From Alphaproteobacteria bacterium (GTDB lineage Bacteria; Pseudomonadota; Alphaproteobacteria; Rhodobacterales; Rhodobacteraceae), in NCBI GenBank assembly GCA_030427405.1, contig JAUHXK010000002.1, positions 248,001 to 312,000 on the forward strand: 64,000 nucleotides of DNA, in the 5' to 3' direction. Of this stretch, positions 3,974 to 37,153 are shown piece by piece (the stretch's first letter is position 1; the number at the start of each line of letters is the position of its first letter). The translations under genes and the position numbers were made by a program. The notes below the pieces were generated by a model. That model saw nothing but the letters and a program-made list of their open reading frames with translations. It searched no databases and had not been told where the DNA came from.

Positions 3974-3979
3974 ACAATG

Positions 3980-4003
3980 GGCCTCCGGGCTCGACCGGAG
4001 GCC
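3980..4003 (+). terminator. Stem-loop terminator after the peroxiredoxin gene
   Basis: A perfect 9-bp stem GGCCTCCGG (3980-3988) and CCGGAGGCC (3995-4003) with a six-base loop starts seven bases after the peroxiredoxin stop. Only a few scattered T residues follow, so termination may be partial. Confidence 0.55.
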
Positions 4004-4098
4004 TGAACGTTCTAACTGGCTTGATGTGCGGTGGCCAAAGGCAAACACTTGACATGATCAGGCCCAGTTCAAGCCCAGTTCAAGCAAGGAGTCATCGG

Positions 4099-4344: not shown

Positions 4345-4355
4345 GGAGACAGGGA

Positions 4356-4703
4356 ATGAAACATGCAGTTTTCGTGATCATGGGCCTTGCCTTTGCCGGA
4401 CCAACAGCCGCTGAAACCGTGGCCCAGTTGCACGAGGCCGAACTGAAGGCCATCGACACCAACAATGACGGGTTTCTGTCCAGGGACGAGTTTGACGCCT
4501 TCTCGGACTACGCGTTTCAGGAAATGGACGACGACAAGAACGGAACGCTGGGACTTGATGAGGCCAAGCCGTTCCTGGATATCAAACATTTTCGCAAATC
4601 CGACAGCAACGGGGACAACGTGGTGTCCCGCGCGGAGTACGATGCGCAGATGCACGCGGATTTTACCGATGCAGATCGCGACGGAAACGGTCAACTCGAC
4701 TGA
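4356..4703 (+). CDS. Exported EF-hand calcium-binding protein
   Basis: A 115-residue protein with a signal peptide (cleavage near AETV, residue 19-20) and four EF-hand-like loops: DTNNDGFLSRDE, DDDKNGTLGLDE, DSNGDNVVSRAE and DADRDGNGQLD at the very C-terminus. The last loop is cut one residue short of a full 12-residue loop. It would bind calcium in the periplasm as a buffer or sensor; no catalytic domain is attached. The gene starts 11 bases after the lipoprotein gene and has a GGAG ribosome site. Confidence 0.78.
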   Translation: MKHAVFVIMGLAFAGPTAAETVAQLHEAELKAIDTNNDGFLSRDEFDAFSDYAFQEMDDDKNGTLGLDEAKPFLDIKHFRKSDSNGDNVVSRAEYDAQMHADFTDADRDGNGQLD

Positions 4704-4754
4704 TCAAGTGCAGGTCGCGCAGGGCGGGATATTTCCGGCAAACAGGAGCGTATT

Positions 4755-5063
4755 ATGAACAAATGGGTTATTTTGGCCGCATGTGGGCTTTTGACTGCAT
4801 GCGACGTCCCGCAGGCCCCGGTTGTGACCGGCCCGGACGGGCAAACACGTATCCAGATCAACCCCGCCGGTCTGACCTGTTATGACACCCGCTGTCTGAC
4901 CATCGACCCCCGCGCCCGCAGCGTCCGGATGACGGGCAACCGCGCAACCGGGATACCCGGCAATATCGACGTCAGCGATGGAACCGTAACACCTGCCGAG
5001 TTCCGGCAGCTGGGCGAAAAGGCGATGCTGGCAGGCGGGATGGGATCGCGCGGAGACCGCTAA
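4755..5063 (+). CDS. Small lipoprotein of unknown function
   Basis: A 102-residue protein with lipobox LTAC (C16). The mature part has a predicted beta-rich middle ([21 protein letters not shown]) with a CYDTRC cysteine pair that could form a disulphide, then a helical tail. No known family is recognised. An AGGAG ribosome site precedes the ATG. Its 3' end overlaps the convergent phhB by four bases. Confidence 0.65.
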
Positions 5064-5353
5064 CACAAACTGTCCATCTTGCGGGCAAGCTTGGCATCCA
5101 GCGCCGACAGCCCGCCAACGTCATGGGTTGACAGGACGACCTCGACCGTGCGGTAGACATTTGACCATTCGGGGTGATGGTTCCATTTCTCGGCCCAGAT
5201 CGCCACCTGGGTCATCCAGCCGAATGCATCGACGAAATCCTCGAAGATGAATGTCTTTGTGATCGCGTCCCGATCCTTGACCATCGTCCAGCCGTTCTTG
5301 AACAGCGGGTCCAGCAAAGGCCCTCGGGTCTCGGTCGACAAAAGTTCTGTCAT
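5060..5353 (-). CDS. phhB: Pterin-4a-carbinolamine dehydratase
   Basis: A 97-residue enzyme that dehydrates 4a-hydroxytetrahydrobiopterin, recycling the pterin cofactor of aromatic amino-acid hydroxylases; it also occurs without such a hydroxylase, where its role is less clear. The active-site motif NHHPEW (H59, H60, P61) and the end-of-fold [10 protein letters not shown] are diagnostic, and the length is typical. Its ATG overlaps the stop of the upstream GNAT gene (ATGA, 5350-5353), so it is the last gene of a translationally coupled set. No phenylalanine hydroxylase gene is in the window. Confidence 0.92.
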
Positions 5354-6537
5354 TGCTGTTCCTCCGGGTTTGATTTTCGGAACGGGCCGTATTCTGTCAA
5401 GATCTCGATCTCTTCTCCCACCGCGTCGGCCTCGGCGTCCAGGTATTTTCTGACGGCATCCGCAAAGCCCGGATCACCGACCCAATGCAGGCTGAAGGTG
5501 CGGGTCGGCAGGTATCCCCTGGCCAGCTTGTGTTCGCCCTGGGCACCGGCCTCGACCCGGCGCAGCCCGTGGGCAATGGCAAAGTCGATCGCCCTATAGT
5601 AGCACAGTTCGAAATGCAGACATGCATGGTGTTCGGTGCATCCCCAATAGCGACCGAACAAGGTCTCGCGCCCAACGAAATTCAGCGCGCCAGCAATGGC
5701 CTGGCCGTCGCGTTCGGCCAGGACCAGCACCATGTCATCCGCCATCGTCTGATGGGCGATCTCGAAGAACTGGCGCGTCAGGTAGGGGCTGCCCCATTTG
5801 CGGGCGCCGGTGTCCTGGTAGAACCGCCAGAACGCATCCCAATGCTCGGGCCGCAACTCTGGCCCTGTCAGAACCCGGATGTCTCCGCCGAAATCCAGCG
5901 CCTGCGACCGCTCTTTGCGGATATTCTTGCGCTTGCGGGACGAAAGCGCAGACAGGAACCCGTCGAAATCGGCATACCCGTCATTGAGCCAGTGAAACTG
6001 CTGCGAATTGCGCATCATCAGCCCCATCTGCACCCCTGCCTGCGCTTCGGCCTCGGTGCAAAAGGTTGCGTGCAGTGACGAGACCTGATTATCGGCCGCC
6101 AGTTGCACCGCCCCCTGCACAAGCGCGGACATACCCACACCCTCATACCCCGGACGGACCAGGAACCGGCGCCCGGTGGCCGGGGTAAAGGGCACCGCGA
6201 CCTGAAGTTTCGGGTAATAGCGCCCGCCCGCGTTTTCATAGGCATGCGCCCAGCTGTAATCAAAGATATACTCGCCCTGGCTGTGAGACTTGGCATACAT
6301 CGGCGCGGCCGCGATCAGCATCCCGTCCAGATAGGCGGTCAGGTATTGCGGATGCCAACCAGTCCCCGGCCCGACCGATCCACTTTGTTCCAGCGCAAGC
6401 AGGAAACGATGCGTCGTAAACGGATCCAGCGGCCGCCCCCCCGAGGCGGCCTCGGGGCAGGCACAGCTATCCCACTCTGCCGCCGATATCTGCGAAAGAG
6501 AGCCCAGAACCCGAACTTCGATTTGTGCCTGATCCAT
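5350..6537 (-). CDS. FemAB-like GNAT acyltransferase (COG3146 / DUF482)
   Basis: A 395-residue protein with the features of the COG3146 family: an early SAAEWD motif, [17 protein letters not shown], the central [16 protein letters not shown] and the C-terminal [11 protein letters not shown]-like segment (here [16 protein letters not shown]). These proteins have an acyl-CoA acyltransferase fold, related to FemAB peptidoglycan transferases. Their substrate is not known. ATG 6537 is chosen over the upstream ATG because GGAGGG sits just ahead of it. It lies between a glycerophosphodiesterase gene (45 bases upstream) and phhB. Confidence 0.8.
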
Positions 6538-6582
6538 ATTCCCTCCGCGCCCGTCCATTATTTGTAGTGGCTGGAAAAAGGA

Positions 6583-7353
6583 TCAACCCGGTTGCGGCGC
6601 CAAATACCCCTCAAAGGTCACATTGTCGGCAACCGCGCGCGCCTGTGCCTCTTGTTCGGGCGACCGGATCGTCCAGCACAAAACAGGGACCGCCTGCGCC
6701 TTCAGCTGGGCCACACGCGGGCGCGTCAGATCGTGCCATTCATGGCTGATGAAACTTGCGCCCGAACGGTCGAAATCGGCAATTTCGCGCAGATGATCCC
6801 GCAGTGCCTTTGGCAAGTTGCAGTCGGCGTCGCCATAAGAGCTGGTGACCAGACCCCGAGGCAGGTGCGGCGCGCAGCGCGCCAGTTCGGCCACGCTGTT
6901 GGGGTTGAAGGACATCAGCGCAACCGGCCCGTCATATCCGCCCAGCGCCCGAACCGTATCTTGTTCCAGCGCGCCAACATCGGGGCCCATTGCCCCGTCC
7001 TGATCCTTGAGCTCGATCAGCAAGGGCACCCGACCTGCGACAAGTTCAAGAACTTCGTCCAATGTCGGAATGCCCTCGCCACCGGACTGCAACAAGGTGA
7101 TCTGCGCGGCCTGATCCACGGTCATTTGCCGGATCGCACCAGATTGGCCCGTCAGCCGTTCAAGCGCATAGTCGTGAAACACAACCGCCCGGTTGTCGGC
7201 GGTCAGTTGCAGGTCGATCTCGATCCCGTACCCGGCCTCGGCGGCCGCCTTTATGGCAGCCCGGCTGTTTTCCGGGCGGCCTTGCGTTTTGTCGTGCAGC
7301 GCCCGATGCGCGATCGGGTGCCGCAGAAACTCCGGTGGCAGCGGCGGGGTCAT
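6583..7353 (-). CDS. Glycerophosphodiester phosphodiesterase, cytoplasmic UgpQ-like
   Basis: A 256-residue TIM-barrel enzyme that splits glycerophosphodiesters into glycerol 3-phosphate and an alcohol. IAHRALHDKTQGRPENS (about 13-29) carries the catalytic HR and PENS, GYGIEIDLQLTAD the metal-binding Glu/Asp, and VVFHDYALERLTG the second catalytic His; LIELKD follows at about 113. There is no signal peptide, as in UgpQ and unlike periplasmic GlpQ. Its ATG overlaps the stop of the ridA-like gene (ATGA). Confidence 0.88.
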   Translation of the reverse strand: MTPPLPPEFLRHPIAHRALHDKTQGRPENSRAAIKAAAEAGYGIEIDLQLTADNRAVVFHDYALERLTGQSGAIRQMTVDQAAQITLLQSGGEGIPTLDEVLELVAGRVPLLIELKDQDGAMGPDVGALEQDTVRALGGYDGPVALMSFNPNSVAELARCAPHLPRGLVTSSYGDADCNLPKALRDHLREIADFDRSGASFISHEWHDLTRPRVAQLKAQAVPVLCWTIRSPEQEAQARAVADNVTFEGYLAPQPG

Positions 7354-7805
7354 TGGATTTCGAAAATACCTTCGATTTCTACGGCCACGCCCAGAGGCAG
7401 TGACGCGGCGCTGACCGCCGAGCGCGAATGCCGGCCCGCCTCGCCCAATGCCTCGACCAGAAAATCGGATGCGCCGTTGATCACTTGCGGCTGCGCGGTG
7501 AAATCCGCGGTCGAGTTCACGAACCCGGTCAGCTTGATCACGCGAACCAGCCGGTTGATATCGCCGTCGCAGGCGGCCTTGACCTGCGCCAGCAGGTTCA
7601 CCGCGCAAACCCTGGCGGCTGCGGCCCCTGCTTCGACATCCATGTCATCCCCCAGCTTGCCGGTAATCAGGTCGTCGTCCTTGGATATCTGACCCGAAAC
7701 ATAGACGATGTTGCCAACACGGACGAACGGGACATAGTTCGCCGCAGGCGCCGGAGCGTCTGGCAGAGCCACACCGAGGTCTGCCAGCTTGTCTGAAATG
7801 CTCAT
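7350..7805 (-). CDS. RidA/YjgF-family enamine-imine deaminase-like protein
   Basis: A 151-residue protein of the longer YjgF subfamily, with GNIVYVSGQIS near residue 32, the helix VNLLAQVKAACDGDINRLVRVIKLTGFV and the C-terminal HSRSAVSAASLPLGVAVEIEGI. The arginine in SRSAV lies where RidA uses an arginine to bind the carboxylate of reactive enamines. RidA proteins remove 2-aminoacrylate and similar reactive intermediates. It is the first gene of the run ridA-like, glycerophosphodiesterase, GNAT, phhB. Activity of the long subfamily is less well tested than that of RidA itself. Confidence 0.85.
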   Translation of the reverse strand: MSISDKLADLGVALPDAPAPAANYVPFVRVGNIVYVSGQISKDDDLITGKLGDDMDVEAGAAAARVCAVNLLAQVKAACDGDINRLVRVIKLTGFVNSTADFTAQPQVINGASDFLVEALGEAGRHSRSAVSAASLPLGVAVEIEGIFEIQ

Positions 7806-23638: not shown

Positions 23639-24142
23639 TCAGTCATGCCTGTGGGTGCGCGAATAGATCGTGACTGCCGCCGCGACAAACAACCCAAGCA
23701 GGATATATCCGGTGACGGCCTCGGCTGCGGCAAGCGCGCGGCACAACCCGGCAGGGGACAGATCGCCATATCCGACCGTGGTAAACGTGACATAGGAAAA
23801 ATATAGTACGTCCGCCGGGCCGTTGGCGCCGATGACACACAGGTCGCTGTACCCGAATGCGCCGTAAACGGCAGCAAACAGGAAGGGCACGACCTGAATG
23901 AAAGAGACCCCCATCAGAAACAACAGCCTGCGTGGCGACTTTACCTGCGTCATGTAATACCAGGACTGGGACACCAGCCAAACCACCAGACCGATCGCGG
24001 CAATCGTGCCGATCGTGTATCCGGCCTGCGTTTCGTTCAGTCGCGACAATCCATACCAGGCCAGAAAGCTGGCCAGAACCAGGCCCAGCGCCGCAACCAG
24101 GGTCGATTTCCATTCTTCCAGGGTTCTGGGTTCGTGGTGCAT
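23639..24142 (-). CDS. Two-helix-type potassium channel protein
   Basis: A 167-residue membrane protein with about four hydrophobic helices; the last two flank a pore loop with the potassium selectivity filter TVGYGD (122-127). This is the Ion_trans_2 module, forming a tetrameric potassium channel in the inner membrane. No RCK or TrkA-N domain is attached, so gating is not apparent. ATG 24142 is favoured over the one at 24199 because GGAG sits six bases before it. It ends one base from the convergent two-repeat gene. Confidence 0.85.
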   Translation of the reverse strand: MHHEPRTLEEWKSTLVAALGLVLASFLAWYGLSRLNETQAGYTIGTIAAIGLVVWLVSQSWYYMTQVKSPRRLLFLMGVSFIQVVPFLFAAVYGAFGYSDLCVIGANGPADVLYFSYVTFTTVGYGDLSPAGLCRALAAAEAVTGYILLGLFVAAAVTIYSRTHRHD

Positions 24143-24217
24143 GTCAACTCCGTCAGACCGAACTGCGGCAATCATCGGGCCTTGGGGCCTGCGCCGCAAC
24201 CTTATTCCGGGCCGCGG

Positions 24218-25219: not shown

Positions 25220-25813
25220 ATGACCCATGCCCTGCTCGTAATCGACGTCCAGAACGATTTCTGCCCCGGTGGCGCACTGGCCGTCGCCCAGGGCGATCAG
25301 GTCGTGGCCCCGATCAACGCGATGATGGATGCGTTCGACGCCGTGATCCTGACACAGGACTGGCATCCGGCGGGCCATTCTTCTTTCGCGGGCACACATC
25401 CGGGCAAAGCGCCGTTCGAATTGATCCAGATGCCCTACGGCCCGCAGGTTCTGTGGCCCGATCACTGTGTCCAGGGCACCAAGGGGGCCGCATTCCACCC
25501 CGATCTGCGAACCGATGCCGACCTGATCATCCGCAAGGGCTTTCGCAGCGATATCGACAGTTACTCGGCCTTTTTCGAGAATGACCAGTCAACTCCGACC
25601 GGATTGGAAGGGTATCTGAACACCCGAGGGATCACGCAGTTGACCATGGTCGGGCTGGCGACCGATTTCTGCGTGCATTTTTCGGCTGTCGATGCCGCGC
25701 GCCTGGGGTTTGACGTAACAGTCAGGACTGCGGCCTGTCGCGCCATCGACCTGGACGGATCACTGGCCGCAGCCGAAACCGCGATGCGCGAGGCCGGTGT
25801 GACGCTTGCCTGA
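25220..25813 (+). CDS. pncA: Nicotinamidase
   Basis: A 197-residue enzyme that converts nicotinamide to nicotinate in the NAD salvage pathway. The catalytic triad is visible: D9 (VIDVQNDF), K106 (IIRKGF) and C151 (ATDFCVHFSA). The metal-binding D47, H49 and H53 lie in QDWHPAGH. AAGGAGG precedes the ATG. The next step enzyme PncB is encoded 700 bases downstream on the same strand, with an opposing gene between them. Confidence 0.93.
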   Translation: MTHALLVIDVQNDFCPGGALAVAQGDQVVAPINAMMDAFDAVILTQDWHPAGHSSFAGTHPGKAPFELIQMPYGPQVLWPDHCVQGTKGAAFHPDLRTDADLIIRKGFRSDIDSYSAFFENDQSTPTGLEGYLNTRGITQLTMVGLATDFCVHFSAVDAARLGFDVTVRTAACRAIDLDGSLAAAETAMREAGVTLA

Positions 25814-25816
25814 CCG

Positions 25817-26350
25817 TCAGGGCGAAGCGCCCGCTGCGGCCAGAAACTTGAGCAACACGAACAGGATCACGGCCAGTCCAAGGGCAAATCCGATACGGCC
25901 CGGCACCGTCCGCCGTTCGGGCTTTGTCGCAGTCTGAGGCGTCGGGCGCGGGTCACCCTGCGGCTCGCGACGCGAAACACCCACCAAGGGCCGCGCCGTC
26001 CTGACATGGTTCAGAAACTGCCGGAAATCGAACTCACCGCTATATTCGCCCTGCACGCCCATGCTTTTGATATTGGAAAACAGGTTGCGCAGGATGCGTT
26101 CACGCGCCTCGGCGTCTTCGGGCAGGTAAAATCCGCGCGGCGTGACGCTGCCGGGTGTGTCCAGGCCAAAGCCCGCATCCAGGAAAATCTTGCGGATCTT
26201 GGGCGAAGCCCCCCGCAATGCGTCCGCCGTTTTCACGTCGCGAAACAGCGCGCGCACTGGGACCGGCCCGGTCGCATTCGCAGCGATTTGCCCGCCTTCG
26301 GCTTCGCCCGGTTCCATTTCTACAATATCAAAGTCGTACTCGAGACTCAT
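25817..26350 (-). CDS. Tail-anchored hypothetical protein
   Basis: A 177-residue protein, acidic at the start (DFDIVEMEPGEAEGG), with a central globular part (about 38-115) and a proline-rich linker before one C-terminal membrane helix (about 152-172), so the bulk faces the cytoplasm. No family is recognised. It lies between pncA and pncB on the opposite strand and ends three bases from the pncA stop. Confidence 0.6.
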   Translation of the reverse strand: MSLEYDFDIVEMEPGEAEGGQIAANATGPVPVRALFRDVKTADALRGASPKIRKIFLDAGFGLDTPGSVTPRGFYLPEDAEARERILRNLFSNIKSMGVQGEYSGEFDFRQFLNHVRTARPLVGVSRREPQGDPRPTPQTATKPERRTVPGRIGFALGLAVILFVLLKFLAAAGASP

Positions 26351-26515
26351 TCACAAACTTCAACCTTCTGGTTCCATCCCCCCTTCCCCCTAAACGGTGA
26401 AGAGCCGTCAGAATATGCCCGCATTGTGACCTGACCTAGGCATTGTCACCGAATCCGCGACTCTTGCCATTCAGCGCCCCGATTGATCTAACAGCGGAAA
26501 TCGCAGGAGTTTCCC

Positions 26516-27808
26516 ATGGTCGACATCGCGACCCGTGTCTACAACCACAAATGGAAGATCGACCCGATTGTGCGGTCTTTGATCGACACGGATTTCTACA
26601 AACTGCTGATGTGCCAGTCAGTGTTTCGCAACAAGCCCCAAACCGACGTGGTTTTTTCGCTGATCAACCGGTCGAATCACGTGCCCCTGGCCCGTTTGAT
26701 CGACGAGGGCGAGCTGCGCGAGCAGCTGGACCACATCCGCTCACTCAGCCTGAGCCGCGGCGAAAGCACCTGGTTAAGGGGCAATACGTTCTACGGCAAA
26801 CGCCAGATGTTCCGCCCCGATTTCATGGAATGGTTCGAGGATCTGAGGCTTCCGCCCTATCACCTGGAACGCAAGGGCGATCAGTATGAACTGACCTTTG
26901 AGGGCAAGTGGCACGAGGTCATGTTGTGGGAAATCCCGGCGTTGGCGGTGCTTATGGAGCTGCGGTCGCGCGCCGTGCTCAATAACATGCGCCGGTTCGA
27001 ACTGCAGGTGCTTTATGCCCGCGCGATGACGCGGGTTTGGGAAAAGATCGACCAGCTGCGCGGGATTGAAGGGCTGGGTATCGCCGATTTCGGTACACGG
27101 CGTCGGCATTCCTTCCTGTGGCAGGACTGGTGCGTTCAGGCGATGATCGAAGGGCTGGGCCCCGCCTTTACCGGGACGTCGAACTGCCTGATCGCCATGC
27201 GCCGCGAGGTCGAAGCGATCGGCACAAACGCGCATGAGCTGCCAATGGTCTATTCTGCCCTTGCCGAGACGGACGAGGCGCTGTCACAGGCCCCCTATGA
27301 CGTCCTGAGCGACTGGCACGAGGAACATGACGGCAACCTGCGGATCATCCTGCCCGACACCTATGGCACCAGGGGGTTTCTGGACAACGCGCCTGACTGG
27401 CTGGCGGGTTGGACCGGAATCCGGATCGACAGCGGTGATCCGGCCGCAGGTGCGGAAATCGCCATCGACTGGTGGAAATCGCGCGGCGAAAACCCGATGG
27501 AAAAGCGCATCATCTTTTCTGACGGGTTGGATGTGGACAAGATCCAGGAACTGCACGCGCGGTTCGCGGGGCGTACAAACGTATCCTTTGGCTGGGGCAC
27601 GCTGCTGACCAATGATTTCCGCGGGTTGGTGCCCGACGACGCGCTGGCGCCGTTTTCGCTGGTGTGCAAGGCGGTTTCCGCCAATGGGCGCCCAACAGTG
27701 AAACTGTCGGATAACCCCGAAAAGGCAATGGGCCCGCCAGACCAGATCGCGCGCTACAAACGCGTGTTCGGTGTCGGCGCACAAGAGTCGATCGAGGTCA
27801 TCGTCTAG
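26516..27808 (+). CDS. pncB: Nicotinate phosphoribosyltransferase
   Basis: A 430-residue enzyme that joins nicotinate to PRPP, giving nicotinate mononucleotide for NAD synthesis. SLIDTDFYKLLMCQ near the start, FGTRRRHS at about 197 and GIRIDSGDPAAGAE at about 303 are the standard PncB motifs; the histidine of RRRHS is the one phosphorylated by ATP in the family. CAGGAG lies before the ATG. With pncA it completes nicotinamide-to-NaMN salvage. It overlaps the convergent aldehyde dehydrogenase gene by four bases. Confidence 0.93.
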   Translation: MVDIATRVYNHKWKIDPIVRSLIDTDFYKLLMCQSVFRNKPQTDVVFSLINRSNHVPLARLIDEGELREQLDHIRSLSLSRGESTWLRGNTFYGKRQMFRPDFMEWFEDLRLPPYHLERKGDQYELTFEGKWHEVMLWEIPALAVLMELRSRAVLNNMRRFELQVLYARAMTRVWEKIDQLRGIEGLGIADFGTRRRHSFLWQDWCVQAMIEGLGPAFTGTSNCLIAMRREVEAIGTNAHELPMVYSALAETDEALSQAPYDVLSDWHEEHDGNLRIILPDTYGTRGFLDNAPDWLAGWTGIRIDSGDPAAGAEIAIDWWKSRGENPMEKRIIFSDGLDVDKIQELHARFAGRTNVSFGWGTLLTNDFRGLVPDDALAPFSLVCKAVSANGRPTVKLSDNPEKAMGPPDQIARYKRVFGVGAQESIEVIV

Positions 27809-29256
27809 CCGTGATAGGCGGCGACCGTTTTCAGTTGTGAAAAGCCATAAAGCGCCTCAAAGCCCTTTTCGCGGCCATGGCCAGATTTGCCAACGCCACC
27901 AAACGGCAACTCGACCCCGCCGCCCGCGCCATAATTGTTGACAAACACCTGCCCCGAACGCAGCCGCCTGGCCAACCGCATCTGCCGGGCGCCATCCCGT
28001 GTCCAGACGCTGGCGACCAAACCGTAATCTGTGCTGTTGGCTATAGTTAGAGCCTGTTCTTCTGTATCAAACGGGATCAGCACCTGGACCGGACCAAATA
28101 TCTCATCCCGCGCCAGAACATGATCGGGGGCCACGTCCGCAAACAATGTGGGCGGCACATAAGCCCCGCCTTCGGGCGCGTCTTCGACGATCTTGCCCTG
28201 CCCGGCGATGGTCAGGTCCGCGCCCTTGTCCAGAAATCCGCTGACGATCTGCTTTTGCCGGGCCGAGATCAACGGGCCAACGCGCAGGTCCTGCATTGCC
28301 GGACCAACGCTCAGTTCCTCATACGCCTTGGCCATTCGGGATTTGACCCGTTCGTAAACGCCGCGCTGCACCAGAATCCGGGACGATGCCGAACAGGTTT
28401 GCCCCGCGTTCTGGATGCCTGCATTCACCAGAAACGGCAGTGCGGCATCCAAATCGGCATCGTCAAAGACCAGTTGCGGGGATTTACCACCCAGTTCCAG
28501 CGTCACCGGAACCACATTGCGCCCCGCCGCCTGCTGCACCAAGGCCCCCGTTGCGACCGATCCGGTGAACGAGATATGGTCAACGCCCGGATGCCCGGAC
28601 AGGGCCGCACCCGCTTCGGCGCCCAGACCGGGCACTACGTTCAGCGCCCCGGCCGGCAGGCCGGCTTCAACCGCGAGGTGGGCAAAGGCCAGTGCAGTCA
28701 GGCACGCCTCTTCGGCTGGTTTCAGAACACAGGCATTGCCCATCGCCAATGCCGCCCCGACAGAGCGTCCAATGATCTGCATCGGATAGTTCCAAGGCAC
28801 GATATGACCCGTCACCCCATGCGGTTCGCGCAGGGTATAGACCGTGTAGCCGTCCAGATAAGGGATGGTCTCGCCCATCACCTTGTCGGCTGCACCGCCG
28901 TAAAACTCGCAATACCGCGCCAGCGCCACCGCATCCGCCCGCGCCTGCGTCAGCGGCTTGCCAACATCCAGCGCCTCAAGCGCGGCCAGATCCTCGGCGC
29001 GGTCCAGCACCAGTTGCCCCAGACGGGTCAGGATTCGGCCCCTTTGCAACGCGGTCATACGGCCCCAATCGCCATCCAATGCGGCCCGCGCCGCGGTAAC
29101 GGCCGCATCGACATCCGGTTCAGCACCACGCGCGATCCGGCAGATTTCTGCGCCGTCGGACGGGTTGATCAGCGGCAGGGTTTCACCCGAGGACGCAGAG
29201 ACCCAGGTCCCGCCAATCAGGCACTGGGTGGGGTCAAACCATGGCTGGTGGGTCAT
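27805..29256 (-). CDS. Aldehyde dehydrogenase family protein
   Basis: A 483-residue NAD(P)-dependent aldehyde dehydrogenase with the catalytic glutamate in LELGGKSP and the cysteine in NAGQTCSASSRILV. The CSASSR context resembles enzymes acting on omega-amino aldehydes (gamma-aminobutyraldehyde type), though substrate class cannot be fixed from this. It lies 34 bases downstream of the ABC ATPase gene on the same strand, so it is probably the last gene of the transporter and channel operon and may oxidise a product of the imported compound. Confidence 0.85.
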   Translation of the reverse strand: MTHQPWFDPTQCLIGGTWVSASSGETLPLINPSDGAEICRIARGAEPDVDAAVTAARAALDGDWGRMTALQRGRILTRLGQLVLDRAEDLAALEALDVGKPLTQARADAVALARYCEFYGGAADKVMGETIPYLDGYTVYTLREPHGVTGHIVPWNYPMQIIGRSVGAALAMGNACVLKPAEEACLTALAFAHLAVEAGLPAGALNVVPGLGAEAGAALSGHPGVDHISFTGSVATGALVQQAAGRNVVPVTLELGGKSPQLVFDDADLDAALPFLVNAGIQNAGQTCSASSRILVQRGVYERVKSRMAKAYEELSVGPAMQDLRVGPLISARQKQIVSGFLDKGADLTIAGQGKIVEDAPEGGAYVPPTLFADVAPDHVLARDEIFGPVQVLIPFDTEEQALTIANSTDYGLVASVWTRDGARQMRLARRLRSGQVFVNNYGAGGGVELPFGGVGKSGHGREKGFEALYGFSQLKTVAAYHG

Positions 29257-29290
29257 ATTGGGGCTCCGAATAGGCTCTAACTAAGGTCAA

Positions 29291-30889
29291 TTACACTGCT
29301 TCCTTCCCGATCTGTGGCAATCGGGGCGCGGCGGCGATCAGCGATTGGGTATAGCGATGTTGCGGGTCGGCGAAGACCTGTTCCGTCTCGCCCTGTTCGA
29401 CGATCCGGCCGGACTGCATGACCAACACCCGGTCGGTGATGGTGCGCACAACGCTCAGATCGTGGCTGATGAACAGATAGGTCAGGTCATAGGTGGCGCA
29501 CAGTTCCGCCAACAGATCGAGGATCTGCGCCCGGACCGAGACATCAAGCGCCGACACCGCTTCGTCAAACAGGATCAACTCGGGGCGGATGATCAGGGCA
29601 CGGGCAATTGCGATCCGTTGCCGTTGCCCGCCCGAGAACTCGTGAATGTACTTGCCTGAATCATCCGGGCTGAGGCCGACCGCCGTCAGCATCTCGGCGA
29701 TCCGGTCCTGCCGTTCCGCCCCGGTGGGCGGGCTTTCCAGCAGGTGAAAGGGCTCGGTCACAAGGCGCGCGACCCGGTGACGGGGGTTAAAGCTGCCATA
29801 CGGGTCCTGGAACACAACCTGCATCTTGCGACGCACGGCAAGGTTTGGCCGGTGACCCGTGAAAACCGGCTGTCCATCCAGATGAATCGCGCCGGACTGC
29901 ACCTCTTCCAAACCCAAAATGGCCCGTGTTAGGGTCGATTTTCCGCATCCGGACTCGCCCACCAACCCCAAACGCTCACCCTTGTTGAGGGTAAAGCTGA
30001 CCCCATCCACCGCGCGGTGATGACCGGGTCTATCGAACAAAGCCTTGCGGGGCAGACGATAATCGCGAACCACTTGCGAGACCTGCAGCAAGGGCTGAGG
30101 CTCGACCGGCTCGGGCAGGGTTACCTGGTGGCCCGAGGCTTCGAACAACATGCGGGTATAGGGATGGCGCATGTGGCCCAGCAAATGTTGGGTCGCGCCG
30201 CTTTCGACCACTTCGCCGTGGCGCATGACGGTGATCCGGTCGGCCATATCCGCCACAACCGCCAGATCATGGGTGATCATCAACAGCCCCATATCGTATT
30301 CGCTGACCAGCCCCTTGAGCAATTCGAGGATTTGCGCCTGCGTCGTCACGTCCAGCGCAGTTGTCGGTTCATCGGCAATCAGCAGCTTGGGGCGCAGCGC
30401 AATGGCCATGGCGATGACCACCCGCTGGCGCTGGCCACCCGACAGTTCATGCGGAAAGCGCGATAGCGGGAACCGATCAGGCGGCAAGCCGACACGGCTC
30501 AGCACCTCTTCGGCGCGGACGCGGGCCTGCGCGGGGGGCATCGCCTTGTGGATCAGGATTGTTTCCATCACCTGATCGCCGATGGTCTTGACCGGGTTCA
30601 GCGCCGTCATCGGCTCTTGGAAGACCATGCCGATCGAGGCGCCGCGCAGGGCGCACATTTCGGCCTCGGGGCGGTTCAAAAGTTCGGAACCGTTCAACCG
30701 GATCGCACCGCTGACCTCGGCCCCGTTCGGCAGCAATTGCATCACGGCCAATGCCGTCATTGACTTGCCCGAGCCGCTTTCGCCGGTCACGGCCACGATC
30801 TGACCCGGGGCGATGGACAGGTCGACCTGCTTCAGGATCGGCACCCCGTGGATTGCCAGCGACAGGTTTTCGATCTCAAGCAAACTCAT
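29291..30889 (-). CDS. Double-ATPase of an oligopeptide/dipeptide-type ABC importer (DppD-DppF fusion)
   Basis: A 532-residue cytoplasmic protein with two complete ABC domains in one chain. Domain 1: Walker A GESGSGKS (about 37-44), signature LSGGQRQR, Walker B LLIADEPTT. Domain 2: GESGCGKS (about 330), signature FSGGQRQR, Walker B LILFDEAVS. OppD/DppD- and DppF-like halves are often separate genes; the fused form is common in Rhodobacterales. It powers uptake through the permeases encoded upstream. ATG 30889 overlaps the permease stop by four bases. Confidence 0.93.
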   Translation of the reverse strand: MSLLEIENLSLAIHGVPILKQVDLSIAPGQIVAVTGESGSGKSMTALAVMQLLPNGAEVSGAIRLNGSELLNRPEAEMCALRGASIGMVFQEPMTALNPVKTIGDQVMETILIHKAMPPAQARVRAEEVLSRVGLPPDRFPLSRFPHELSGGQRQRVVIAMAIALRPKLLIADEPTTALDVTTQAQILELLKGLVSEYDMGLLMITHDLAVVADMADRITVMRHGEVVESGATQHLLGHMRHPYTRMLFEASGHQVTLPEPVEPQPLLQVSQVVRDYRLPRKALFDRPGHHRAVDGVSFTLNKGERLGLVGESGCGKSTLTRAILGLEEVQSGAIHLDGQPVFTGHRPNLAVRRKMQVVFQDPYGSFNPRHRVARLVTEPFHLLESPPTGAERQDRIAEMLTAVGLSPDDSGKYIHEFSGGQRQRIAIARALIIRPELILFDEAVSALDVSVRAQILDLLAELCATYDLTYLFISHDLSVVRTITDRVLVMQSGRIVEQGETEQVFADPQHRYTQSLIAAAPRLPQIGKEAV

Positions 30890-31701
30890 GCCCGCGCCAC
30901 TCTTATCCGGGGGTCCAGCCAGTCGCGCAGCCCGTCGCCCAACAGGTTCAGACCCAACACCGTAACGATGATGGCAAGACCCGGAATCAGAGCCAAATGC
31001 GGGGCAAAACTGACCATTGTCTGCGCATCGGCCAGCATCCGGCCCCAACTGGGCGTGGGCGGTTGCGCGCCCAATCCTACATAGGACAAGCCCGCCTCGG
31101 CCAGAATGCCCAGGCTGAACTGGATGGTCCCCTGCACGATCAGCAGGTTGGCCACATTAGGCAGGATATGTTCCGCCGATATCCGCGCTGCGCCCTTGCC
31201 CGACACACGGGCGGCAAGGATGAACTCTCGTTCCCAAAGCGATAAAGCGGCCCCGCGGGTGATGCGCGCGAAAACAGGGATGTTGAAGATGCCGATGGCG
31301 ATGATGGCGTTTACGGCCCCGGCGCCGAACACGGCGGTTATCAGGATGGCGATGACCAGCGAAGGGAAAGCAAAAACCAGATCATTGCCGCGCATGATCA
31401 CCTCGTCCAGCCATGACCCTTTGCGGGCGGCTGCCGTCAGGCCCAGCGGCACGCCGAAACCCACACCGATGCCCACCGCCACCAGCGCCACCGCAATCGA
31501 GGTGCGCGCACCCACCATGATCATCGAAAATATGTCCCGCCCGAAATGATCCGTGCCGAACCAGTGCTGCGTGCTGGGCGGCTGCAACTTGTCGGGAATG
31601 TTCAGCGCGGCATGGTCATAGGGTGTCCAGACAAACGACACCACCGCCGCCAAAAGAACCAGCGACGACAGCAGCGTTCCAAGGATCAGGTTGCGGCTCA
31701 T
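30886..31701 (-). CDS. DppC/OppC-type ABC permease
   Basis: A 271-residue inner-membrane permease with six helices. HWFGTDHFGRDIFSMIMVGARTS (about 45-67) is the standard motif of DppC-type permeases. The EAA loop that contacts the ATPase is at about 165-185 (ILAARVSGKGAARISAEHILPN). It starts by ATGA overlap with the DppB-type gene. Confidence 0.92.
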   Translation of the reverse strand: MSRNLILGTLLSSLVLLAAVVSFVWTPYDHAALNIPDKLQPPSTQHWFGTDHFGRDIFSMIMVGARTSIAVALVAVGIGVGFGVPLGLTAAARKGSWLDEVIMRGNDLVFAFPSLVIAILITAVFGAGAVNAIIAIGIFNIPVFARITRGAALSLWEREFILAARVSGKGAARISAEHILPNVANLLIVQGTIQFSLGILAEAGLSYVGLGAQPPTPSWGRMLADAQTMVSFAPHLALIPGLAIIVTVLGLNLLGDGLRDWLDPRIRVARA

Positions 31702-32645
31702 GTCCGGCTCCTCAACCTTGGATCAACGGCGGCATAGGCCAAATCGACCAGAAAATTCACGGTGATAACGGCAAAGACCAGCAGCATGACCACCGATTCC
31801 ACCACGATCAGATCGCGGGCCGAGATCGCCTGAAACACCAGCCGCCCCAAGCCGGGCAGGTAAAACACCTGTTCGATGATGATCGACCCTGCCAGCAGGA
31901 AGGAAAATTGCAGCCCGATAATTGTCAGCACCGGGATCAGCGCGTTGCGCACCCCGTGCCGCCACAGCGCCTGACGGCGGCTAAGGCCCTTGGCGCGGGC
32001 CGTGCGCATGAAATCCTCGCCCAGAATATCCAGCAGGGATGAGCGCATGACGCGCGCCAGAATGGCCGCCTGTGGCAGGGCCAGCGCGATGGCGGGCAGG
32101 GTCAGCGAATGCAGACCTGTCCAAAAACCGGTTTCCCAGCCGACGAACCCTCCGGCATTGAACCAGCGCAGGTTGATGGCGAAGATCAGGACCAGCATCA
32201 TCGCAAACCAGAAATTCGGTACCGCGATACCCAGTTGCGTGGCGCCCATGACCGCCAGGTCTCCGGGTTTGCCCCGGCGCGCAGCGGCATAGATCCCGGC
32301 GGGAAAGGCGATCAGGGTGGACAGGGTCAGCGCATAAAGCGCCAGCGGCAGCGACACCCACAGCCGGTCCGCGATCATCTGCGATACAGGCGTGCGATAG
32401 GTGTAGGATGTGCCAAAATCCCCGGTCAACATCCCGCCGACCCAGTTGAAATACCGCTGCAGTTTGGACACGTCCAACCCAAGCTCTGCCCGCAGGGCCG
32501 CCAAGGTATCGGGCTGCGCGTTCACGCCCAGCATGAAAGACGCCGGATCACCCGGAGCAACCTCGATCACGCCGAAAATGACGACCGACGCAACCGCGAG
32601 GCTGATGATCAACGAGAGCAGGCGTTTGAGAGAATAACGAAGCAT
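31698..32645 (-). CDS. DppB/OppB-type ABC permease
   Basis: A 315-residue inner-membrane permease: LRYSLKRLLSLIISLAVASVVIF start helix, APGDPASFMLG, and the C-terminal DFMRTARAKGLSRRQALWRHGVRNALIPVLTIIGLQ, which is the EAA loop region of DppB proteins. ATG 32645 is taken as the start; a GTG three codons earlier is the alternative, and neither has a good ribosome site. The pLGIC gene ends 40 bases upstream on the same strand. Confidence 0.92.
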   Translation of the reverse strand: MLRYSLKRLLSLIISLAVASVVIFGVIEVAPGDPASFMLGVNAQPDTLAALRAELGLDVSKLQRYFNWVGGMLTGDFGTSYTYRTPVSQMIADRLWVSLPLALYALTLSTLIAFPAGIYAAARRGKPGDLAVMGATQLGIAVPNFWFAMMLVLIFAINLRWFNAGGFVGWETGFWTGLHSLTLPAIALALPQAAILARVMRSSLLDILGEDFMRTARAKGLSRRQALWRHGVRNALIPVLTIIGLQFSFLLAGSIIIEQVFYLPGLGRLVFQAISARDLIVVESVVMLLVFAVITVNFLVDLAYAAVDPRLRSRT

Positions 32646-32685
32646 TGGCGCCACGTTAGGGTCGCAATCCGCCGGGGTCCAGCAC

Positions 32686-33756
32686 CTATGGCACTACCAG
32701 AAAGACAGAAACCGCATATGCGACGATTGCGGCATACCCCAGGGGGTAAATCCACTTGATCGCATAATTATCAAGCTTCCTGGCCGCCTCTTCCCGGCCT
32801 GCGACCTTTAACCGGCGCAAGGCGACGTTGAACACAATCAGCGCCCCCGTCATCAGGAACATGCATTGCAGTATGAAGTCCAGAAAGGTCAGGTATCCCA
32901 GCTTGGGCAAATCTTCGGAAATGGCCCAGTTGAACGCGACGAAAACCAATAGATTTGCGCCTGCGATTTCGATCCGCTTGCGGTATTCGTCCAGAAAAAA
33001 CAGCGCCCAGCCCACGGTGACCAGCACCAGCATCGGCAGGAACACGCGAATGACGTAATAGGTCAGGTGCCGCTTGCCTTCGAAAATCAGCGCCACCTGG
33101 TCGCTGTCGCGGCCCGACAAGCCGGTGACTGTCGAGGCCTCAAGCCGCGCATTGCCCAAAATCCATTCTTCCTCGCCCAAAAGATCGCCCAGGCCCGAAA
33201 ACTCGTCCAGCGGGTAATAGGACACGTATTCGGACGGTAGGATGGACACCACTTCGAACTGAAACCGCTGGGTGTCGAACGGGTATTTGCGAAAGTTGAA
33301 ATAGGGTGCCTGCAGCGTCAGCGAGGATTTCTCGAGATAGACCACACGCCCGTCATGGTTCAGCCCGGCGGCGGATTCGTGTATCCACTTGTTGGACTGC
33401 TGGTTATGGATGACAAAGGCTGGCAAAACCGTGCCGATTTCGGCCGCGTGATCGGCCAGCGCCGGAGGGCTGAACACGCGGATATCGCGGCCCGCTTCCT
33501 GCGGGTCGAATGCCAGCGCGGGGTCGACCCATTCCACCCGCAACACAACAACGGCACCGTAATTCTCGGCTTTTTGATCAACGCCGGTGATCTGGTCAAT
33601 CCAAATGCCGATCCCCACATCCAGCGGGTTTTCAGGCGTTCCCGTCAGGGCATCCAGCCGGCCCCCAAGGGCGTTTTGCGCCTGGACCTTTCCGGGCATG
33701 GCCGCGTTAAGGCACAGAAAGGCGGCAGCAAGGGCAAGACTACGTAGCAGTGTCAT
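32686..33756 (-). CDS. Pentameric ligand-gated ion channel (Cys-loop/Pro-loop family, GLIC/ELIC-like)
   Basis: A 356-residue relative of nicotinic-type receptors. Signal peptide about 1-27; extracellular (periplasmic) ligand-binding domain about 45-228 with IWIDQITGVDQKAENYGAVV and EWVDPALAFDP, which parallel the GLIC sequence closely; the Pro-loop APYFNFRKYPFDTQRF (150-165). Four membrane helices follow: M1 about 231-255, M2 about 262-280, M3 about 288-312, M4 about 336-356. Five copies form a channel across the inner membrane opened by a periplasmic ligand. There is no large M3-M4 loop, as usual in bacteria. It lies between the solute-binding protein gene and the permease genes, same strand. 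ATG 33756 is used; TTG 33759 is possible. Confidence 0.9.
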   Translation of the reverse strand: MTLLRSLALAAAFLCLNAAMPGKVQAQNALGGRLDALTGTPENPLDVGIGIWIDQITGVDQKAENYGAVVVLRVEWVDPALAFDPQEAGRDIRVFSPPALADHAAEIGTVLPAFVIHNQQSNKWIHESAAGLNHDGRVVYLEKSSLTLQAPYFNFRKYPFDTQRFQFEVVSILPSEYVSYYPLDEFSGLGDLLGEEEWILGNARLEASTVTGLSGRDSDQVALIFEGKRHLTYYVIRVFLPMLVLVTVGWALFFLDEYRKRIEIAGANLLVFVAFNWAISEDLPKLGYLTFLDFILQCMFLMTGALIVFNVALRRLKVAGREEAARKLDNYAIKWIYPLGYAAIVAYAVSVFLVVP

Positions 33757-33786
33757 CAATACAGTTTTTCACATCCGGCGGGGGCC

Positions 33787-33809
33787 CGGGGCTGCAAGGC
33801 GCAGCCCCG
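33787..33809 (-). terminator. Stem-loop between solute-binding protein and ion-channel genes
   Basis: CGGGGCTGC (33787-33795) and GCAGCCCCG (33801-33809) form a perfect 9-bp stem with a five-base loop, nine bases after the binding-protein stop. There is no T-run. Such intergenic stems in ABC importer operons commonly hold the binding-protein mRNA at high level while reducing read-through into downstream genes. Confidence 0.5.
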
Positions 33810-33817
33810 TGTGTTTG

Positions 33818-35305
33818 TCATTCGGACCAGCTGATCGCGGTCAGGTCGATCGCGGCGGTCGGGGCATTCTCCCAAAGCCCCTGAACACCCGCCTTGGCCA
33901 CGCCCAGCTTGGCCAGCTGGAACAGGTATCCATTGACGTAATCCGCGGCAATCAGGCGCTGTGCCTCGCCCAGAAGCTTGCTGCGTTCTTCTGGATCGGT
34001 GGTGGTATTGAGGGTGTCCATCAGGGTCTGGAAATCCAGGCTGTCATACTGGAAGTAATAATCCGGGCGCGCATAGATACCGATATCCATCGGCTCGGTA
34101 TGGCTGACGATCGTCAGGCCGAAATCCTTGCCTTTAAAGACCGATTCCAACCATTGCGCCCATTCCACATTGATGATCTCGGCCTTGATGCCGACCTCGG
34201 CCAGTTGCGCGGCGATGATTTCACCGCCACGGCGCGCGTAGGACGGCGGCGGCAGGTGCAACGTCGTTTCAATCCCGTCGGCAAACCCGGCCTCGGCCAG
34301 CAACGCTTTGGCCTTTTCCGGGTCATGGGCCGAATTCCCCGTCAGATCGACATAGGCGGGGTTATGCGGCGCGAAATGCGTGCCGATGGGCGTGCCATAG
34401 CCAAACATCGCCCCGTCGATGATCGCCTGCCGGTCAATCGCATGGGCCAGCGCCTGCCGCACGCGGATATCATCAAATGGCGGCTGCTTGTTGTTGGTCG
34501 ACAGGATCGTCTCGCCCTCGGTTGACCCTACCAGCACCTGAAAGCGCGGGTCGGCCTCGAACTGGGGCAGGTTTTCGGGTGCCGGGAAATTGTCGAACAC
34601 GTCGATATCTTCGGCCATCATGGCGGCAAAGGCGGCGGTCGGGTCCGAGATGAACTTGAAGGTCGCAGTCTCTAATGCGGGCTGATCGCCCCAGTACTCA
34701 GGGTTGCGGTTCAGCGTTATGCTGTCGCCCTGCACCCATTCACCAAAGGTGAAGGCGCCTGTTCCCACCGGGTTGGTCTTGATGTCACCGATGCTTTCGG
34801 ACGCGACGATCACCGCGTCGCCCCAGGCCAGGTTGAACAGGAAGTTTCCGTTGGGGGCGGCAAGCGTGACCTTGACCGTCAACGGGTCGATCACCTCGAC
34901 GCTTTCGATCCCGGCAAACAGTGCCTTTTGCGCATTTGCGCTGTCTTCGGTCAGCGCGCGGTCAAGGCTGAACTTGACGTCCTCGGCATCCATGGCGGTG
35001 CCATCATGGAACGTGACACCTTCACGCAGCTTGAACGTGTACTGGGTCCCGTCACCCGAAATCTCCCAGCTTTCGGCAAGCCCCGGCACGACCGACCCAT
35101 CACCCATGAAACGGGTCAGGCCTTCGAAGATATTGGTGTAGACCACCGAATCAATGGCCTGGGCCGCGGCACTGGTCGGGTCCAGATGCGGGGGTTCCAA
35201 CTGCATCGCGATGGTGATGTCCGATTTGGCCATGGCCTGCGACGCAAGCAAGGTTGCACCAAGCGCAAGGGCCGATGCAAAGGATCGAACTGACTGCATT
35301 TCCAT
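33818..35305 (-). CDS. Periplasmic solute-binding protein of a dipeptide/oligopeptide-type ABC importer (SBP_bac_5)
   Basis: A 495-residue protein with a signal peptide (cleavage near ASQAMA-KSD, about residue 26) and the family 5 fold: MQLEPPHLDPTSAAAQAIDSVVYTNIFEGLTR, LREGVTFHDGTAMDAEDVKFSLDR, then RQALAHAIDRQAII. Family members bind peptides, nickel, opines, amines or sugars, so the ligand is open. It is the first gene of the operon. GGGAG precedes ATG 35305 by eight bases. The divergent panB gene lies 169 bases away; that gap holds both promoters but no clear -35/-10 was seen. Confidence 0.92.
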   Translation of the reverse strand: MEMQSVRSFASALALGATLLASQAMAKSDITIAMQLEPPHLDPTSAAAQAIDSVVYTNIFEGLTRFMGDGSVVPGLAESWEISGDGTQYTFKLREGVTFHDGTAMDAEDVKFSLDRALTEDSANAQKALFAGIESVEVIDPLTVKVTLAAPNGNFLFNLAWGDAVIVASESIGDIKTNPVGTGAFTFGEWVQGDSITLNRNPEYWGDQPALETATFKFISDPTAAFAAMMAEDIDVFDNFPAPENLPQFEADPRFQVLVGSTEGETILSTNNKQPPFDDIRVRQALAHAIDRQAIIDGAMFGYGTPIGTHFAPHNPAYVDLTGNSAHDPEKAKALLAEAGFADGIETTLHLPPPSYARRGGEIIAAQLAEVGIKAEIINVEWAQWLESVFKGKDFGLTIVSHTEPMDIGIYARPDYYFQYDSLDFQTLMDTLNTTTDPEERSKLLGEAQRLIAADYVNGYLFQLAKLGVAKAGVQGLWENAPTAAIDLTAISWSE

Positions 35306-35474
35306 GAATTTCACTCCCAACTGAGACAGGCTGGCCCGCTTTGCGCGGATCGTTCTCAGACCAATGTCCCCGTAAACCCAGGGTCATTCAAGGAATTGTT
35401 CGCGCAACCGGGGTTTCTATGACCTTGCGCAATCTGCTATGCCGCGCTGCAACGTGAACACCGGAGGAGCGACC

Positions 35475-36314
35475 ATGAGCGCCACCGCCCGAAAAAAGGC
35501 CCCGAACGCCGAGGATATTCGCGCCCGGAAAGGCGGCGAACCCCTGGTCAGCCTGACCGCCTACACCACGCCAATGGCCCGGTTGATGGATGCCCATTGC
35601 GACTTTGTTCTGGTCGGTGACAGCGTTGGAATGGTGCTGCACGGGCTGGATTCGACCCTTGGCGTGACCATGGAGATGATGATCCTGCACGGGCAGGCGG
35701 TGGCGCGGGGGCTGGACCGGGCGATGATGGTCGTCGACATGCCGTTCGGCAGCTATGAACATTCACCCGCCGAGGCGTTCCGCAACGCCGCCCGGCTGAT
35801 GGCCGAAACAGGGGCTGCCGCGGTCAAGCTGGAAGGCGGGGTCGAGATGGCCGACACGATCCGTTTTCTGGTCAAACGGGGCATTCCGGTCATGGCGCAT
35901 ATCGGGCTGACGCCGCAATCCATCAACACGCTGGGCGGCTACAAGGTGCAAGGCCGCGATGAACAGGCCGACGCGGTTCTGGCTGACGCCCGCGCCGTCA
36001 CCGATGCCGGTGCGTTTTCGGTCGTGTTAGAGAAGGTTCCGCAGGGGCTTGCCGACCAGATCACCGCCGAGGTGTCAATTCCGACCATTGGTATCGGCGC
36101 CTCGGCCGGGTGCGACGGGCAGATACTGGTCGTCGATGACATGGTGGGCTTTTTCACCGCCTTCAAACCGAAATTCGTCAAACGCTATGCCGAGCTGGGC
36201 CCCCTGGCCGAAGCTGCCATTGCCGAATACGCCGCCGAAGTCCGCGCCCGCAGCTTTCCGACGGATGAACATGTGTTTGCCGATCAGGCCCCCGCCAAGG
36301 TGGCCAAGCCATGA
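35475..36314 (+). CDS. panB: 3-methyl-2-oxobutanoate hydroxymethyltransferase
   Basis: A 279-residue TIM-barrel enzyme, first step of pantothenate synthesis: adds a hydroxymethyl group from methylenetetrahydrofolate to ketoisovalerate. [32 protein letters not shown] and [20 protein letters not shown] are the family motifs; the metal ligands are the aspartates in GDSVG and [17 protein letters not shown] precedes the ATG. It overlaps panC as ATGA. Confidence 0.95.
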
Positions 36315-37153
36315 CCGCGCCGATCCTGCGCCGTCTGGACGACCTGCGCGCCCTGACCACCAGTTGGCGCAGCCGCGGCGAGGTGATTGGCGTCGTGCCC
36401 ACGATGGGCGCGCTGCACCAGGGGCACCTGTCCCTGGTCGAGGCCGCAAAGGCGGGGTGCGACCGGGTGATCGTGACCATCTTTGTGAACCCCAAGCAGT
36501 TCAACAACCCCGAGGATTTGGCCAAGTACCCGCGCACTGAAAATGAAGACGCGCAAAAGCTGCTTCCCTTCGATGTTGACGCCATCTATGTGCCCGACCC
36601 TGAAGAGATCTACCCGCAAGGTTTCGCAACTACCGTTTCGGTTGCAGGCCTGACCGACGTGATGGAAGGCGAATTTCGACCCGGACATTTTGACGGGGTC
36701 GCCACCGTCGTGGCCAAGCTGTTCCTGCAAACGCAGGCGGATCGGGCCTTTTTCGGGGAAAAGGATTTTCAGCAACTGATGGTCGTCCGCCGCATGGCGC
36801 GTGATCTGGACATCCCGATCCAGGTCGTCGGATGCCCCACGATACGCGAGCCCTCGGGGCTGGCCATGTCCTCGCGCAACCTGCGCCTGTCGCCCCAGGG
36901 GTTGCAGGTTGCCGCCCAAAAGCACCGGATCATGAATGACCTGGCACGCGCCTTGCAAGGCGGTGCGGCGTTTGACCCGCTTGCCGCCAGCGCCCGGACC
37001 GCGCTGTTGGCCGCCGGCTTTGCGCAGGTGGAGTACATTCAGCTGCGTTGTGCCGAAACGCTTGACCCTTTGAGCCGCGCAGATAAGCCCGCCCGCCTGT
37101 TTGTCGCGGCCTGGGCAGACGGTGTGCGCCTGATCGACAACATTCCCGTCTGA
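36311..37153 (+). CDS. panC: Pantoate--beta-alanine ligase
   Basis: A 280-residue ATP-dependent ligase making pantothenate from pantoate and beta-alanine. The nucleotide-binding motif [14 protein letters not shown] (HxGH), [45 protein letters not shown] and the KMSKS-like [10 protein letters not shown] are all present. It is co-translated with panB, the usual pair. A weak hairpin CGCTC/GAGCG (37155-37170) follows the stop. Confidence 0.95.

Follow-up and report, generated by a model that had tools for sequence, protein, structure and literature searches.

To our knowledge, the natural role of bacterial pentameric ligand-gated ion channels (pLGICs) is open. The closest described arrangement was reported by Tasneem et al. 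(2004, PMC549065); in the accessible part of that report, pLGIC genes share predicted operons with genes for type II binding proteins, fused to them or beside them, and a role as chemotaxis receptors was proposed. For the channel ELIC, a predicted operon with a metabolic enzyme was described, and the adjoining decarboxylase gene was read as a hint to the ligand (PMC3119659, accessible part); the word "transporter" is absent from the main text of that paper. The present study concerns a window of 64,000 nucleotides (the whole stretch of DNA that was analysed) from the genome of a marine bacterium of the Rhodobacteraceae, in which a pLGIC gene separates the binding-protein gene of an ABC importer from its permease genes. 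As in the operons of 2004, a stand-alone type II binding-protein gene is located next to the pLGIC gene, for which cooperation was proposed there; unlike the operons in the accessible part of that report, here a whole Opp-type importer and a dehydrogenase gene follow, and the channel occupies an exchangeable slot that is followed by a promoter-like element. It appears that the locus extends the described association of pLGICs and binding proteins, the slot and the element being new. The sequence-only reading of the window, which knew of no characterised system of this make-up, has to be qualified in view of the 2004 report. A search of one open library, subscription journals being outside its scope, yielded no title that deals with such a gene arrangement in Ruegeria or related bacteria, and the accessible text of a 2016 inventory of pLGICs has no mention of Ruegeria, Silicibacter, Rhodobacter, neighbor or gene context (PMC4795631).

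The reading that we favour, with modest confidence, is that the channel is an autonomous co-expressed passenger in an exchangeable slot of the importer operon. As for the earlier interpretation, the linkage of channel and importer, the fixed orientation of the channel gene and the purifying selection acting on it stood, but the notion of a channel built into the operon and the argument for amines as ligands did not.

Linkage and inheritance of the channel gene

The searches covered 54 genomes of the genus, including that of the window, a family sample of 295 genomes and a class-wide sample of 385 genomes. Channel genes at E < 1e-140 were found in 38 of the 54 genus genomes and, according to the coordinates, all 38 follow the binding-protein gene directly, co-directional with it and at a distance of no more than about 140 bases. 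This adjacency is far from chance. Each of the 38 channel genes has a conserved co-directional neighbour of the SBP_bac_5 family, which we take to have the type II binding-protein fold. Elsewhere in the 54 genomes, a single further channel match was detected (27% identity, G329). The sequence-only reading had singled out random contexts in close relatives as evidence against it; the place proved to be fixed for all 38 of these channel genes.

In the family sample, the binding protein was found at E ≤ 1e-150 in 178 of 295 genomes and the channel at no less than 50% identity in 14 (15 genes), any channel match being present in 25; the importer is therefore spread wider than the channel. Eleven of the 15 genes are located in the slot, one is cut by a contig end, with the permeases 4.8 kb behind it on the same strand (L161 of G220), and three are located elsewhere (G207, G100 and the second copy of G213). 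G100 possesses the channel and neither permease 1 at E 1e-60 nor the binding protein at 1e-150. Overall, the linkage of channel and importer recurs in ten genera (by group code) within the family sample, in line with the proposed check for pLGIC genes near SBP_bac_5 genes in other genomes, but beyond the family the gene order was not found, in a search that was thin there and partly confined to short contigs (L042, L047, L048 and L252). The proteins of the window were compared with 29 stretches, including three slot loci; the remaining 26 gave no tblastn match to the binding protein or permease 1, although distant SBP_bac_5 genes could escape this search, and L041, L044, L045, L162 and L250 had matches to the ATPase only. 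The Pfam channel model matched in 5 of 385 class genomes, four of them above the cut-off and the window's own genome included, this model being less sensitive than the channel protein used as a query in the family sample. No channel match was found in 72,556 plasmid records.

Two other neighbourhoods were observed. In L171 (G180, 3236-7764), the gene for a pLGIC from a different subfamily (29% identity) lies directly behind those of a TAXI-TRAP-like binding protein and permease (assigned by eye) on the same strand, downstream of an Opp-type permease 2 end (73% identity) and ATPase (64%) resembling those of the window; this is a separate pLGIC-importer neighbourhood. In L168 and L173, distant pLGIC genes (22-26% identity) adjoin genes resembling, by eye, tamA and tamB.

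The phylogenetic analysis, from which L177 with its two-frame channel was omitted, placed the slot channels in one clade (support 0.93), with the off-slot family channels L158, L159, L160 and L041 branching outside. The p-distances of the channel (47 loci, one duplicate pair) correlate with those of the binding protein at r = 0.90, of permease 1 at 0.78 and of permease 2 at 0.56, and permease 1 correlates with the binding protein at 0.80 and with permease 2 at 0.85. A single entry of the channel, after which it was inherited jointly with the binding protein and lost or replaced several times, would fit these trees and distances best, and joint recombinational exchange of the binding protein and the channel may also have taken place. 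The channel gene is under purifying selection and is not decaying: the median ratio of nonsynonymous to synonymous substitutions (dN/dS) was 0.08 in 13 pairs by the Nei-Gojobori method, with synonymous sites partly near saturation, while the binding protein has 0.046, permease 1 has 0.033 and the dehydrogenase has 0.066. Outside the genus, the channel is broken by stop codons in G007 and read in two frames in G110, where a sequencing error is possible.

The constant adjacency in the genus and the close correlation with the binding protein are what would be expected if the channel sensed the compound taken up by the importer, or its breakdown product, with the ion flux reporting the arrival of the nutrient. 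The same two facts are the points in favour of another possibility, that the channel serves as a docking site for the binding protein and receives the ligand from it, as the permeases do. However, when 31 loci with and 16 without the channel were compared, the commonest residue of the binding protein differed in 14 of 500 columns, and even the best-ranked column gave no clean split. This argues against both explanations, and we consider docking very improbable.

An exchangeable slot in the importer operon

Among 125 binding-protein loci, 12 were dropped because no downstream permease was located within the stretch; the remaining 113 loci with a binding protein and a downstream permease included two duplicates, leaving 111 distinct loci. 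Of the 178 family genomes encoding the binding protein, about 67 had their slot examined, chiefly the ones in which this protein is most similar, and the loci were gathered with the channel and the binding protein as baits (the channel search and the best-ranked binding-protein matches), so that the proportions given below are not frequencies.

In 47 of the 111 loci the slot contains the channel gene, co-directional with the operon in all 47, and in 27 it is shorter than 300 bases; these include L193, where masked bases make the slot unreadable and a channel is possible. A gene for a protein of 339 aa (TPR339), co-directional, was found in nine loci, and four loci contain an SH3 gene that runs opposite to the operon. 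A histone-deacetylase-like (HDAC-like) gene, also on the opposite strand, occurs in eight loci without and three with the channel, and a co-directional cupin gene in five without and one with it, two of the cupin loci also holding the HDAC-like gene. Thirteen slots fit no occupant class; single slots contain an iron-permease-like gene, a cation-exchanger gene and, by eye, a tannase-like and a GMC-oxidoreductase-like gene. In the genus (n = 54), the slots hold the channel (38), the 339-aa gene (9) or the SH3 gene (4), two are nearly empty and one is unreadable. Sixteen genus genomes have no channel match; 15 of their loci are readable, and the permeases, the ATPase and the dehydrogenase are present in all 15. 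The place of the channel is thus an exchangeable slot with alternative occupants, and the operon does not have the channel "built into" it as had been supposed, the importer being intact without it in these loci and in the majority of the family genomes that encode the binding protein. On the 110-tip tree of the neighbouring operon proteins, the presence of the channel changes at least 15 times and the slot state at least 32 times.

It might be supposed that the channel is a pure hitch-hiker in a slot tolerant to insertions, with an unrelated task and no meaningful co-regulation. The other occupants are mutually unrelated and some are reversed, the many changes of state would agree with this, and the 339-aa gene is likewise under purifying selection (dN/dS 0.08-0.13, four pairs). 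However, the channel is always co-directional, while the SH3 and HDAC-like genes are always opposite (yet the 339-aa and cupin genes are co-directional too), and outside the slot channel genes are almost absent from the genus genomes. We consider pure hitch-hiking improbable.

Some details of the occupants were also recorded. The 339-aa protein (L181, 3555-4571, and eight further loci) is secreted-looking, has no Pfam match and is the commonest alternative occupant in the genus; a relative with 60% identity is encoded elsewhere in G331, a genome that also possesses the channel. A further relative was suspected upstream of the second G213 channel (L159) and rejected, since BLAST gave chance-level matches only. 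In L022 and L164 (G043), about 6.5 kb with sarcosine-oxidase-subunit-like genes (by eye) lie between the channel and the permease, and the promoter-like element described below is still located 5' of the permease.

Layout and transcription of the locus

All six genes of the locus are on the minus strand (Table 1), in the order binding protein, channel, permease 1, permease 2, fused ATPase and aldehyde dehydrogenase. The gap between the channel and permease 1 is 40 bases, and permease 1 and permease 2, as well as permease 2 and the ATPase, overlap by four bases each. The order, the single strand, the 40-base gap, a four-base overlap and the terminal dehydrogenase had been noticed earlier and are borne out by the sequence and the Pfam assignments. 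For permease 1, the ATG start is preferred over a GTG at 32654 because the latter overlaps the promoter-like element. With SBP_bac_5, two BPD_transp_1, two ABC_tran and oligo_HPY domains, the importer has the composition of Opp/Dpp/Nik-type ABC importers, namely a binding protein, two permeases and a double ATPase; unlike the usual members of this type, its binding-protein gene is parted from the permease gene by an accessory slot. Genes for nicotinate phosphoribosyltransferase and nicotinamidase-like proteins adjoin the importer on one side, and panB-panC on the other, in most genus loci shown. About 3.6 kb past the dehydrogenase end, a small open reading frame with a TTVGYGD potassium-channel filter is located on the minus strand (23639-24199).

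Table 1. Features of the importer locus in the window
Feature	Position	Strand	Basis
Binding-protein gene (SBP_bac_5, Opp/Dpp/Nik type)	33818-35305	minus	PF00496, 324.9 bits; ATG 35305 behind GGGAGTG
Hairpin, 9-bp G+C-rich stem, directly 3' of the binding-protein stop codon	33787-33809	minus	folded; no T run on the coding strand
Pentameric ligand-gated ion channel, 356 aa, signal-peptide-like start, sTeLIC/DeCLIC side	32686-33756	minus	ATG 33756; PF02931, sTeLIC matches, dN/dS
CTGGAC-N17-CTAACGT element, putative promoter of a leaderless permease mRNA	32653-32682	minus	perfect here; 7 bases 5' of the permease ATG
Permease 1 (DppB/NikB type)	31698-32645	minus	PF00528, PF19300; ATG 32645
Permease 2 (DppC/NikC type)	30886-31701	minus	PF00528; ATG 31701
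Fused double ATPase (DppD-DppF type)	29291-30889	minus	two PF00005 stretches and PF08352; ATG 30889
Aldehyde dehydrogenase	27805-29256	minus	PF00171; ATG 29256
Importer flanking regions	25220-27808 and 35439-37153

A hairpin with a stem of at least 7 follows the binding-protein stop codon in 42 of 47 channel loci, compared with 17% of 1200 shuffles, and carries a T run in six of the 47; no such hairpin was found in the nine loci with the 339-aa gene. The hairpin of the window received a terminator-like call for the opposite strand only. Such hairpins commonly protect the 5' message or reduce read-through.

On the other side of the slot, the element CTGGAC-N17-CTAACGT, counted with up to two mismatches, is located 5' of the permease in 74 of 110 loci, compared with 13 of 2200 shuffles, and it was not found in any of the 110 loci in the control regions upstream of the binding protein and inside the permease. 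The spacer is 17 bases in 73 of the 74 matches, and the distance to the ATG is seven bases in 64 and six in nine. The element is present in 41 of 47 loci with the channel, 7 of 9 with TPR339, 4 of 4 with the SH3 gene, 16 of 24 with other occupants and 6 of 26 near-empty slots. Conservation peaks on both boxes and drops in between, and the copy in the window is the sole zero-mismatch place of its genome for the pattern including the ATG. A Shine-Dalgarno-like motif before the permease was found in 3 of 94 loci and in none of the 69 element-bearing rows. Two boxes at fixed spacing just before the start codon, together with the lack of such a motif, suggest that the element is probably a promoter whose transcript starts at the permease AUG (leaderless), which would split the cluster into two units. 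Leaderless mRNAs are documented in Sinorhizobium, in a paper whose accessible part cites them for Rhodobacter sphaeroides as well (PMC3616915). Separate transcripts for channel and importer, which the sequence-only reading had regarded as contradicting it, are thus likely, as predicted from the element in the 41 channel loci; at the same time, expression of the channel shared with the importer is likely.

Taken as a mechanism, the passenger reading would run as follows. The channel gene probably entered the slot once, in an ancestor of several Rhodobacteraceae genera. Its transcription would start at the promoter of the binding-protein gene and pass a hairpin at which the message of the latter ends or by which it is protected, and the channel would be made in smaller amounts whenever the binding protein is made. 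The permease-ATPase-dehydrogenase half would be driven by its own promoter-like element at the start codon and would not need the slot. The channel would then act as an autonomous inner-membrane pentamer, sharing the expression of the importer and not its transport machinery, and would presumably open on a periplasmic signal: an ion, pH or a small molecule.

Besides the baited choice of loci, several points weigh against this reading. The long co-inheritance with the binding protein could also mean a functional bond. The element was first spotted by eye in the same loci, so that the controls speak for its specificity and are not an independent prediction, and kinship among the loci may be part of the reason why near-empty slots seldom have it. 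It does not form a repeated class in the genome of the window, with 22 places at up to three mismatches compared with 31 for the reversed control, and it fails a sigma-70 TTGACA/TATAAT scan, the consensus of which is that of E. coli. The element is weak in L165 and L177 and missing in L032, L033, L034 (Falsiruegeria mediterranea) and L194, where, since the channel in addition ends 10 bases before the permease, a single message is likely.

Channel family, ligand and possible role

The domain Neur_chan_LBD (PF02931) was recognised in the channel with 44.9 bits against a cut-off of 26. By sequence, the closest solved relatives are sTeLIC (6fl9, E 1.7e-77) and DeCLIC (9.1e-72), followed by GLIC (1.6e-23); the best 60 of 232 matches are filled by these three, and ELIC is absent from them. 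The AlphaFold model (mean local confidence score, pLDDT, 76.9; global template-modelling score, pTM, 0.62) contains ten strands followed by helices 231-254, 258-280, 288-318 and 322-354, as expected for the pLGIC architecture; the top fold match by Foldseek is sTeLIC (9ex6, E 2.4e-32), with DeCLIC next after it and ELIC absent among the 50 fold matches listed. The Pro-loop PFD.Q (F153, F155, P159, F160, D161, Q163) is invariant across 24 aligned proteins and contains no Cys in the window channel. As judged by sequence and model, the gene product is a prokaryotic pLGIC (Pro-loop receptor), predicted to be a homopentameric ion conductor. The designation "GLIC/ELIC-like" thus holds as far as the superfamily is concerned, but not with ELIC as a near relative. 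The channel of a Tevnia symbiont, sTeLIC (6fl9, 9ewa, 9ewl), shares about 42% identity and the same simple architecture, whereas DeCLIC (6v4a, 9ftg), about 37% identical in the core and with Glu at the same pore position, carries an extra N-terminal domain that the window channel lacks. An acidic residue near the pore mouth suggests cation selectivity.

The ligand-binding region differs from that of ELIC. ELIC has aromatic residues in loop C, which have no counterpart in the window channel: in its loop C stretch (residues 199-224, limits taken from the sTeLIC alignment) F, Y and W are all lacking between W198 and F225, and among the eight slot channels printed only that of L165 has an aromatic residue in this segment. 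The vestibule of sTeLIC binds 4-bromophenethylamine, 4-bromoamphetamine and 4-bromocinnamate, with Trp75, Leu93 and Tyr104 named in the accessible part of the report (PMC11988449); according to the alignment, the first two are replaced by Leu and Ala in the window channel and Tyr104 is kept. The features of an ELIC-type amine-gated channel, an aromatic loop C and ELIC among the closest relatives, were not found in the sequence, and the earlier argument for amines is weak on the same grounds and in view of the lost vestibular Trp. The residues checked would neither exclude nor favour amine or aromatic ligands.

All 11 matching NCBIfam families of the binding protein and all 25 listed for the aldehyde dehydrogenase score under their cut-offs. 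Deducing the ligand from the dehydrogenase was given up, since no listed family passes and the nearest solved chain, 4ywe, is itself a putative enzyme. The HDAC-like slot gene as a hint to acetyl-polyamines or amines was dropped as well, being closest to HDLP (presumably of Aquifex origin) and located on the opposite strand. The main text of a paper on Ruegeria pomeroyi transporter mutants contains no mention of peptide, oligopeptide, nickel, opine or aldehyde dehydrogenase (PMC10130141).

For sensing of the imported compound itself, the precedents are the binding-protein neighbours of 2004, the decarboxylase beside ELIC and the compounds bound by sTeLIC, one of them a phenethylamine. However, the importer is intact without the channel in the 15 readable genus loci, the channel occurs without the importer in G100, and in the window channel loop C has no aromatic residue and the vestibular Trp is replaced by Leu. 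We regard this explanation as unlikely, though a serious candidate, a shared nutrient signal being possible.

A role as a chemotaxis receptor, the published proposal drawn from gene contexts (PMC549065), is largely refuted here. CheA (PF02895) and CheW (PF01584) were found in only one of the 54 genus genomes, the channel-bearing G322 (together on contig C2, 64012-65650), whereas 7 of 14 reference genomes gave matches as controls. The remaining 37 genomes with the channel have neither protein, and the chemotaxis role therefore does not fit them; we give it hardly any credence.

In cells without CheA and CheW, the channel, made with the binding protein, might turn the arrival of the compound, or of an accompanying ion, into a membrane-potential signal. 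We put forward such a nutrient-regulon channel as a rather unlikely idea; if true, it would give a bacterial pLGIC a task in the physiology of the cell, and sister species with and without the channel occur naturally. Structures of bacterial pLGICs serve as models for nerve receptors, and the genus offers 38 of 54 genomes with the channel at a fixed place and 15 with an intact importer without it. Operon membership is a weak guide to the function of the channel, since its place is an exchangeable slot. The conserved promoter-like element behind the slot would let unrelated, even reversed, genes sit there with the importer unharmed.

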